64,000 nucleotides of DNA from Leucobacter salsicius M1-8 (GTDB lineage: Bacteria > Actinomycetota > Actinomycetes > Actinomycetales > Microbacteriaceae): assembly GCF_000350525.1 (NCBI RefSeq), contig NZ_AOCN01000015.1, positions 1 through 64,000 of the forward strand, given 5' to 3'. Shown here in pieces: positions 29,793-32,107 of the stretch (position 1 is its first letter; every line of letters starts with the position of its first letter). The notes under the pieces were generated by a model. The model was not told the DNA's origin and did not search any database. It saw only the letters and a program-made list of their open reading frames with translations. Position numbers and translations under genes: made by a program.

Positions 29793-30242
29793 ATGGCGAA
29801 GGTAATTCTCACTCACGAGGTCGTTGGCCTCGGATCCGCCGGTGACGTCGTAGACGTCAAGACCGGTTACGCACGTAACTACCTGGTGCCCCAGGGCTAC
29901 GGTGTCCACTGGACCCGTGGCGGCGAGGCTCAGGTTGCGCAGCTGCGCGCAGCTCGCGACGCACGTGCACTCGCTTCGGTCGAGGACGCTCAGGCGCTCC
30001 GCGACAAGCTGCAGGCAAGCAAGGTTCGCCTGTTCGCTAAGACCGGCACCGGTGGACGCCTCTTCGGCTCCATCAAGGGCGCTGCAGTTGCTGCAGCTGT
30101 CGCTGAGGCCGGCATGGGCGAGATCGACAAGCGTAAGGTCGTGCTTCCCGCGATCAAGACGACCGGTGAGTACAAGGCTGTCGTGCACCTGCACGAGGGC
30201 GTTGACGCTCGCATCACGCTCCAGGTTATTGCCCAGCGCTAA
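29793..30242 (+). CDS. rplI: 50S ribosomal protein L9
   Basis: 149 residues. The N-terminal domain has [20 protein letters not shown] and [13 protein letters not shown], followed by the long helix ([18 protein letters not shown]) and the C-terminal rRNA-binding domain ([18 protein letters not shown]). AAGGAGA precedes the ATG. It is the last gene of the operon and is followed by a terminator. Confidence 0.97.
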
Positions 30243-30260
30243 AGCTTGGTAGTTGCCTTG

Positions 30261-30294
30261 CGGGGCGGTGGTTCCTCACGGAGCCGCCGCCCCG
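30261..30294 (+). terminator. Terminator of the rpsF-ssb-rpsR-rplI operon
   Basis: The stem CGGGGCGGTGGTTCC / GGAGCCGCCGCCCCG (two G-U pairs) has a short loop and is followed by TTTGCGTTTTCTT. Confidence 0.8.
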
Positions 30295-30727
30295 TTTGCG
30301 TTTTCTTGGACTGGTTTCTTGGACTGGTTTCTTGTGGCGGTTTTGGTGAATCGCGCGTAAATTGCGGGTGTCGCCGTATGCGCTTCCGGGCGTGGCGTCA
30401 ATCGAAAATTCGTACGAGTTCTCCACAGCGTGCCGCTGTAGGCTGAGACTCAACCCCGACCTGAAGGTTGAATAACTTTCCACCTGTGGAAAGTGTAAAG
30501 CCCAGGTCACGGGCCTCTTTGTGTTAACAGCATGGATTCCATCCACAGGTTATCCCCAGAGGTGTGGAGAAACTCCCGCACAAACTCGCGAGTTTTGCAC
30601 ATAGTTATCCACAGGTCAATTTGACCGATATTGCCCCCGTGTGCGCGGCCGCCTAGCGTGAACGCGAGGCGTAGTAGTTTCCCGGCGCTGGTCGCCTTAG
30701 TTTTTGCAGTAGTTAAGGAGTAGTCGC
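30295..30727 (+). promoter_or_regulatory. DnaA-box-rich region upstream of dnaB
   Basis: The gap contains no gene but has a cluster of DnaA-box-like 9-mers: TTCTCCACA (30419-30427), TTATCCCCA (30550-30558), TTCTCCACA on the minus strand (30563-30571), TTATCCACA, perfect (30605-30613), plus weaker CTTTCCACA (minus, 30485-30493) and CCATCCACA (30539-30547). CTTTCCAC-CT-GTGGAAAG (30476-30493) is a perfect palindrome. AAGGAG at 30715-30720 is the dnaB ribosome site. Possible roles are DnaA control of dnaB, DnaA titration, or an auxiliary origin element. Confidence 0.6.
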
Positions 30728-32107
30728 GTGTCGATTGCACACCTCGGTATCCCCGACGAGTTTGAGCAGGAGGGGTCGTCGCGCGGCTTTGAGCGCACGC
30801 CGCCCTACGACCTGCTCGCGGAGCAGAGCGCCCTTGGTGGCATGCTGCTGTCGAAGGACGCTGTGGCAGACGTCACGGGTATTCTCACCGGCGGCGACTT
30901 CTATGTGCCCAAGCACGAGGTGATCTACGAGGCGGTGCTGTCGCTCTACTCGCGCGGCGAGCCCACCGACGTCATCACCATCACCGATGAGCTGACGAAG
31001 CTCGGCGAGCTGCAGCGTGCCGGCGGCGTCGACTACTTGCACAGCGTCACGAGTATCGTGCCGACCGCCGCCAATGCCAGCTTCTACGCTGAGATCGTCG
31101 CCGAGAAGGCGCTGCTGCGTCGGCTTGTTGAGGCGGGCACCCGCATCGTGCAGATGGGCTACGCCGGCGAGGGTGAGGCGATTGACCTTGTCAACGTCGC
31201 GCAGTCCGAGATCTACGGCGTTACTGGTGAGTCGCAGGGCGAGGACTACGTGCCGCTCTCGCTCGCCGTCGACGCCGCCCTCGAAGAGATCAGCAAGGCC
31301 AGCAACTCCACCGGCGGCATGATGGGCGTGCCCACCGGCTTCACCGAGCTCGATGCCCTCACCAATGGTTTCGCTGGTGGCCAGATGATCATCATCGCGG
31401 CCCGACCCGCAATGGGTAAGTCGACGCTCGCGCTCGACGTGGCCCGCAACGCGTCGGTGCACGCCGACGCCCCCACCGTCTTCTTCTCACTCGAGATGGG
31501 CCGCGCCGAGATCGCAATGCGACTCCTGGCCGCCGAGGCTACGATCCCGATGCAGACGCTGCGTAAGGGCACCCTCGACAATCGCGACTTCCAGAAGCTC
31601 GCCGCCACGCAAGCGCGCATCGCCGAGAAGCCGCTCTTCATCGATGACAGCCCCAACCTGACGCTCGTGGAGATTCGTGCCAAGTGCCGCCGACTCAAGC
31701 AGCAGCACGGGCTGCGCATGGTCGTCATCGACTACCTGCAGCTGCTCTCGAGCGGCAAGAAGGTCGAGAGCCGTCAGCAAGAGGTCAGTGAGTTCTCGCG
31801 AGCCCTCAAGCTGCTCTCCAAAGAGCTCGACGTGCCCGTGATCGCGCTGTCACAGCTGAACCGTGCGTCGGAACAGCGTGCCGACAAGATGCCCGCGATC
31901 AGCGACCTGCGTGAGTCGGGTTCGCTGGAGCAGGACGCCGATATGGTGATCCTGCTGCACCGCGAGGCCGTGGGAGACCGCGACAGCCCGCGTGCGGGTG
32001 AGGCCGACTTCATCCTCGCGAAGCAGCGTAACGGCCCCACGGGCACCGTCACCGTTGCGTTCCAGGGCCACTACTCGCGCTTTGCTGACATGCCGAGCGG
32101 GGTGTAG
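30728..32107 (+). CDS. dnaB: Replicative DNA helicase DnaB
   Basis: 459 residues from GTG 30728 with AAGGAG 7 nt upstream. The N-terminal DnaG-interacting domain (PPYDLLAEQSALGGMLLSKDA) is followed by a RecA-like helicase core: Walker A ARPAMGKSTLALDVARNAS, Walker B VVIDYLQLLSS, and SQLNRASEQRADKMPAISDL. There is no intein, in contrast to several actinobacterial dnaB genes. It unwinds DNA at the replication fork. Confidence 0.98.
   Translation: MSIAHLGIPDEFEQEGSSRGFERTPPYDLLAEQSALGGMLLSKDAVADVTGILTGGDFYVPKHEVIYEAVLSLYSRGEPTDVITITDELTKLGELQRAGGVDYLHSVTSIVPTAANASFYAEIVAEKALLRRLVEAGTRIVQMGYAGEGEAIDLVNVAQSEIYGVTGESQGEDYVPLSLAVDAALEEISKASNSTGGMMGVPTGFTELDALTNGFAGGQMIIIAARPAMGKSTLALDVARNASVHADAPTVFFSLEMGRAEIAMRLLAAEATIPMQTLRKGTLDNRDFQKLAATQARIAEKPLFIDDSPNLTLVEIRAKCRRLKQQHGLRMVVIDYLQLLSSGKKVESRQQEVSEFSRALKLLSKELDVPVIALSQLNRASEQRADKMPAISDLRESGSLEQDADMVILLHREAVGDRDSPRAGEADFILAKQRNGPTGTVTVAFQGHYSRFADMPSGV

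Follow-up and report, generated by a model that had tools for sequence, protein, structure and literature searches.

A probable DnaA-controlled regulatory region with a head-to-tail array of DnaA boxes upstream of dnaB in Leucobacter

Description

Here, we describe the region upstream of the replicative helicase gene dnaB in a Leucobacter genome of 3.19 Mb. The window, meaning the whole stretch of 64,000 nucleotides that was analysed, corresponds to positions 1 to 64000 of contig 15 (C15:1-64000), and the closest relatives of its DnaB protein (93 per cent) are also from Leucobacter. Gene order around the feature is ssb, rpsR, rplI, a 485-bp gap and dnaB, with the genes presumed to be rpsF and rpsR named from the usual operon and the open reading frames. 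The gap has the length given in a preliminary description of this DNA (rplI ends at 30242 and dnaB starts at 30728), and it also contains a likely terminator of rplI. Terminator-like sites number 2 in the region against 0.8 in shuffled sequence, and the one that opens the gap likely sets transcription of dnaB apart from the rpsF-ssb-rpsR-rplI operon, so that dnaB probably has a promoter of its own. The features of the region are as follows.

29793-30242, + strand: rplI (ribosomal protein L9), the upstream neighbour; open reading frame, TIGR00158 above cut-off
30260-30295, + strand: likely intrinsic terminator of the rpsF-ssb-rpsR-rplI operon; 16-pair stem, pattern match only
30419-30427, + strand: distal DnaA box TTCTCCACA, kept in the genus as TTnTCCACA
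30450-30471: imperfect dyad TCAACC...GGTTGA, kept in the genus (33 distinct sequences, by eye)
30475-30494: inverted repeat ACTTTCCAC-CT-GTGGAAAGT
30485-30493, - strand: two-mismatch DnaA box inside the right arm of the inverted repeat
30503-30509, + strand: CAGGTCA, one version of the motif C[AT]G[AG]TCA, which is enriched upstream of dnaB in the class and at many origins
30539-30547, + strand: weak DnaA box CCATCCACA, two mismatches; the next box lies 2 bp further
30550-30558, + strand: DnaA box TTATCCCCA, one mismatch
30563-30571, - strand: DnaA box TTCTCCACA on the opposite strand, one mismatch
30593-30601, + strand: weak DnaA box TTTTGCACA, two mismatches; the proximal box lies 12 bp on
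30605-30613, + strand: proximal DnaA box TTATCCACA, perfect
30631-30659, + strand: predicted dnaB core promoter TTGCCC-N17-TAGCGT (TTGCCC at 30631, TAGCGT at 30654)
30715-30720, + strand: AAGGAG, likely ribosome-binding site
30728-32107, + strand: dnaB, replicative DNA helicase, GTG start, 459 amino acids; open reading frame, TIGR00665 above cut-off

The preliminary description reported one perfect and three one-mismatch DnaA boxes before dnaB, weaker relatives on both strands and a palindrome of the TTTCCAC type, and all of these were recovered. Scored against TTATCCACA, the four stronger boxes start at 30419 (+), 30550 (+), 30563 (-) and 30605 (+), and two-mismatch boxes start at 30485 (-), 30539 (+) and 30593 (+), giving seven boxes (≤2 mismatches) within 195 bp (30419-30613). 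The palindrome (30475-30494) consists of two inverted 9-bp arms around a 2-bp centre. Dinucleotide-shuffled versions of the gap hold a mean of 0.06 sites at ≤1 mismatch, and 0/2000 of them reach the 4 sites observed, while half of the window's sites at this threshold (4/8) fall in these 195 bp.

Conservation was assessed in the best 80 of 589 relatives, mostly Microbacteriaceae, of which L090 and L097 were left out of the counts for having too little upstream DNA and 16/80, having no rplI match (tblastn) or upstream DNA, were entered by distance to dnaB only. Together with the window, 77/79 sequences carry a box (≤1 mismatch) in the 400 bp upstream of dnaB, 70/79 carry two or more and 63/79 carry a perfect one, counts that are not independent because the sequences compared are related; L064 and L074 have no box at this threshold in those 400 bp. 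Of the sites in the window and 80 relatives, 229/258 sit upstream of dnaB, between 400 and 101 bp ahead of where its match begins, control 400-mers from the dnaB start onward contain at least one site in only 8/638 cases, and an unguided k-mer count upstream of dnaB ranks CTGTGGA and ATCCACA at the top. Alignment of 33 distinct Leucobacter sequences brings the boxes into register, with AGTTATCCACAGG (30603-30615) as the best-kept block. In the wider class, a sample of 66 of 97 other genomes, picked to cover families (31 in all), contains at least one box within 600 bp upstream of dnaB in 62/66 and two or more in 55/66, with 205 sites compared with 20 for the reversed pattern; four of the 66 have no box in those 600 bp. 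The signal is weaker in other classes of the phylum (34 of 55 same-phylum genomes), with at least one box in 17/34 and 29 sites against 7 reversed. Neither outcome that the preliminary description named as refuting the cluster, a box count within that of shuffled sequence or a lack of the boxes in close relatives, was obtained.

Distances between boxes on the same strand form a comb at 11-12, 21-23, 32-34, 43-45, 53-57, 64-68, 75-78 and 87-90 bp. The best period is 11.10 bp in 31 Microbacteriaceae (R 0.68) and 10.85 bp when one sequence is taken from each of 30 other families (R 0.63; null 0.14, 0/200). In other classes, the ladder is not significant when one mismatch is allowed (135/200) and is significant when two are allowed (0/200). 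As given in the available text of one report, E. coli DnaA favours double boxes 2-3 bp apart, or 11-12 bp start to start, which is also the commonest same-strand spacing here, although the E. coli boxes belong to a different regulon and the register upstream of dnaB continues to about 90 bp (PMC11317965).

The predicted dnaB promoter lies just downstream of the array, its -35 element starting 17 bp past the proximal box. A strict TTGACA/TATAAT scan of the region found no promoter, and the predicted one follows a loose pattern. Counting only sequences with a box, TTG-N16..19-TAnnnT is found ≤45 bp after a box in 32/33 Leucobacter, 54/61 other Microbacteriaceae and 30/68 sequences from other families, compared with 11, 5 and 5 per cent in block shuffles; the remaining 38/68 from other families have no such promoter within 45 bp. 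Gaps between box and promoter are quantised. For + strand boxes, the modal gap per genus is 7-8 bp in 21 genera, 18-20 bp in 14, 28-31 bp in 5 and 40 bp in 1 (41 genera, labelled by record title with some hand splits for named loci and by numbers for others), and for - strand boxes it is 4-5 bp in 6 genera. A uniform null reproduces this phasing in 0/5000 trials, and in 0/20000 when only gaps above 12 bp are used. The commonest gap is 17-18 bp in Leucobacter and 7-8 bp in other Microbacteriaceae; a gap of 39 bp in L022 reflects a wrong promoter choice by the script and was kept in the count. Among 22 sequences with gaps of 16 bp or more, 7 have a degenerate box at the 7-8 position. The best gap period, 11.5 bp, is longer than 10.5 bp, which makes the box ladder itself a possible source of the quantisation. 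A count of 511 boxes, which took only promoters with a box ≤60 bp upstream and thus favours upstream boxes, places 498 upstream of the predicted -35 or core, 7 overlapping the core and 6 downstream. The boxes adjoin the predicted promoter of dnaB, as expected of a member of the DnaA regulon.

Many Leucobacter relatives, as distinct from the window, also have TTGACA about 17-18 bp ahead of a TAGTTCT or TAGTTG that runs into the distal box (by eye, around 30388-30427), possibly a second, DnaA-covered promoter.

From its sequence and conservation, the 195-bp segment is quite probably an upstream regulatory region through which DnaA controls dnaB, built as a head-to-tail DnaA array. DnaA would bind the strong proximal box (30605) first and then co-operatively fill the weaker boxes about 11 bp apart (9 bp of box and 2-3 bp of spacer), building an oligomer beside the -35 element of the dnaB promoter. 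What the sequence itself shows are the boxes, their conservation, the ladder and its relation to a predicted promoter; binding in Leucobacter and its co-operativity are deduced. The oligomer would most likely activate the promoter by contacting RNA polymerase, and dnaB transcription would then track active DnaA, coupling helicase supply to initiation. At the origin, DnaB is recruited by DnaA. Were DnaA to govern dnaB transcription as well, through an array that the whole class keeps, initiator activity and helicase supply would belong to a single circuit, and the quantised spacing offers a direct way of testing this.

Precedents exist for parts of this arrangement. According to the available text of PMC7738170, the segment upstream of dnaB is one of the five regions that M. 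tuberculosis DnaA binds most strongly in vitro, and ChIP-seq in M. smegmatis recovers the homologous regions in vivo; the M. tuberculosis mutant I282T, in which 113 genes are altered, binds the dnaB upstream region less and under-expresses dnaB. DnaA boxes thus precede dnaB in another actinomycete (the Rv0057 region of M. tuberculosis and its M. smegmatis homologue), as they do here, although the family is a different one and the part of that report available to us describes no box ladder, fixed promoter link or class-wide conservation (PMC7738170). In Caulobacter crescentus, whose lineage is unrelated to Leucobacter, dnaB likewise has predicted upstream DnaA boxes, responds to DnaA supply and belongs to the DnaA regulon, as stated in the available text of PMC8203912. 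Published work thus already covers DnaA binding ahead of dnaB (mycobacteria, PMC7738170) and control of dnaB by DnaA (Caulobacter, PMC8203912), and it is the regularity and wide conservation of the dnaB array that stand out among related cases. We found no description of a dnaB ladder, of its fixed placement relative to the promoter or of the motif common to oriC (below) in the open-licence PMC literature, which does not prove that none exists. Control of helicase supply by DnaA, one of three roles offered in the preliminary description, is accordingly the one favoured by conservation (77/79 and 62/66), by a predicted promoter at quantised distances and by the mycobacterial binding data in the accessible part of PMC7738170.

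As to the sign of regulation, activation is somewhat the better supported, with repression or dose-dependent switching accounting for the rest; it is favoured because the boxes lie upstream of the promoter and because mutant I282T under-expresses dnaB. Autorepression of dnaA occurs in some bacteria, and repression of dnaB by DnaA from the array is a minority reading that nonetheless carries some weight. DnaA can repress or activate depending on its nucleotide state and level, as the available text of PMC8203912 has it, and 7/511 boxes overlap the core promoter; in the window, however, no box at ≤2 mismatches overlaps the core (30631-30659), and the less-binding M. tuberculosis mutant makes less dnaB mRNA rather than more, in a background of 113 changed genes (PMC7738170, available text).

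The distribution of boxes over the genome bears on a second alternative, DnaA titration. TTNTCCMCA as such is not enriched in the genome (65 sites in 3.19 Mb against 58 for the reversed control pattern), while perfect boxes number 20 against 3 for the reversed pattern. Four TTNTCCMCA sites per 200 bp occur only at oriC (C14:18722-18921) and upstream of dnaB. Among the one-mismatch matches listed (100 of 185 places, so that later contigs may hold more clusters) is a third cluster at C15:152157-152717, with nine sites at ≤1 mismatch in 561 bp, denser than the dnaB cluster. It lies 88 kb past the window (about 5158-5718 of L102), flanked by genes for a threonine-aldolase-like protein (-) and an ABC-transporter ATPase (+), both named by eye from open reading frames. 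Its DNA is matched in 5/41 Leucobacter genomes including its own and, beyond its own, over more than 50 bp only in G157. With so little of it kept in the genus (4/40 other genomes), the idea of a conserved titration site there was rejected.

Box clusters such as datA and those of Bacillus subtilis have been proposed as DnaA titration sites. The dnaB array could similarly soak up DnaA on boxes duplicated early near the origin, its place before dnaB being secondary, and it is indeed a dense box cluster outside oriC. It would also double soon after initiation, since the dnaB start lies 14.2-18.7 kb from dnaA in 7 single-contig Leucobacter genomes (G156, G157, G158, G169, G180, G184, G186); in 3 others, dnaA is at the start of a contig and dnaB near the end of that contig, and in the genome described here the two genes are on separate contigs. 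Titration needs no fixed spot ahead of a promoter, yet the boxes are kept at that spot across the class, and the denser cluster elsewhere on the contig consists of DNA that is hardly conserved. Titration, also raised in the preliminary description, hence leaves the link to dnaB and its promoter unexplained and is improbable as the main role, while it may occur as a side effect of DnaA control of dnaB.

Comparison with origins addresses the third suggested role, a secondary origin element. The dnaA-dnaN interval is the usual place of oriC in actinomycetes, and the earlier statement that it lies outside the window holds, with dnaA and dnaN located on contig 14. Origin regions of 38 of the 97 class genomes were retrieved, giving 39 for the ladder comparison. 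These show the comb as well, 3' of dnaA (R 0.49 at 10.85 bp), though less sharply than the dnaB regions in 35 of these genomes (R 0.66 at 10.75 bp); because oriC has the ladder too, it is a general trait of DnaA arrays and not a mark of promoter control. Origin and dnaB regions resemble each other in this ladder of about 11 bp and, in many genomes, in the presence of CAGGTCA, and differ in that oriC boxes use both strands (73 +, 95 -) whereas dnaB boxes use mainly one (79 +, 26 -). They differ further in DnaA-trio runs, seen at some origins (6/39 by a strict pattern, 11/39 by a looser one) and at 0/67 and 4/67 dnaB regions, respectively, a comparison that is silent for Leucobacter itself, whose own oriC has neither the strict nor the looser pattern. 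The 60-bp AT maximum is 0.55 at the dnaB array and 0.63 in the genome's own oriC, a weak argument since the medians for the class are close to each other (0.48 and 0.50). A secondary origin or oriC element, for which the oriC-like spacing and the CAGGTCA common to many origins would speak, is thus very improbable with dnaA, dnaN and oriC on contig 14 and with no strict DnaA-trio among the 67 dnaB regions.

Equally improbable is that the DNA ahead of dnaB encodes a small RNA or a structured leader, a reading of the repeats at about 30450-30494 (30450-30471 and 30475-30494, where single sequences fold into hairpins) that was rejected on finding no Rfam family at gathering score, no consensus structure by RNAalifold (58 sequences), no clean helix in an ungapped covariation screen, and mean folding z values nearly equal on the two strands (-1.10 on + and -1.08 on -), as for a DNA dyad.

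The CAGGTCA motif may point to a further partner of the DnaA boxes. Outside Microbacteriaceae, GCAGGTCA is found in 27/75 dnaB upstream regions against 1.3 in shuffles, and forms of it are found in 36/77 dnaB upstream regions. CAGGTCA is present in 21/38 oriC regions (L240-L277) against 3.3 in shuffles, with some copies inside dnaN and 14 copies on the dnaN-to-dnaA strand behind a box pair (by eye). It often takes the form GTTTCCGCAGGTCAG behind DnaA boxes. The genome's own oriC lacks the motif, and TTNCGCAGGTCA also occurs beyond oriC and dnaB (89 places across 12 genomes, compared with 27 for the reversed control), although in G041 oriC and the dnaB region account for two of its three places. 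For CAGGTCAG at oriC, the open-licence PMC literature gave no on-topic account judging by titles, with a Streptomyces plasmid paper (PMC3583192) as a possible exception. We tentatively propose, as an idea more doubtful than DnaA control of dnaB itself, that the dnaB promoter of Actinomycetes may carry a module resembling oriC, in which an 11-bp ladder at fixed distances from the promoter is joined by a CAGGTCA/GTTTCCGCAGGTCAG partner site that recurs next to boxes at oriC, and that a partner factor, or DnaA in another mode, may operate at oriC and dnaB alike and so link origin firing with helicase synthesis. A motif common to oriC and the dnaB region would hint at a possible missing regulator of actinobacterial replication.

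Several minor features were also seen. The TCAAC...GTTGA dyad was rejected as a class-wide element and is a local feature, as a regular-expression search matched only 3/60 other Microbacteriaceae loci (L030, L031, L078). In many genomes of the class (e.g. G040, G058, G097), the dnaB match is divided into blocks within one long open frame, which looks like the work of inteins; dnaB in the window has no such split. In Microbacteriaceae outside Leucobacter, CGGCGTTT occurs in 42/62 upstream regions (L028-L087) against 1 for the reversed control, and GGCGTTT starts 27 bp ahead of the proximal box in 28/49 loci with a promoter-linked box.
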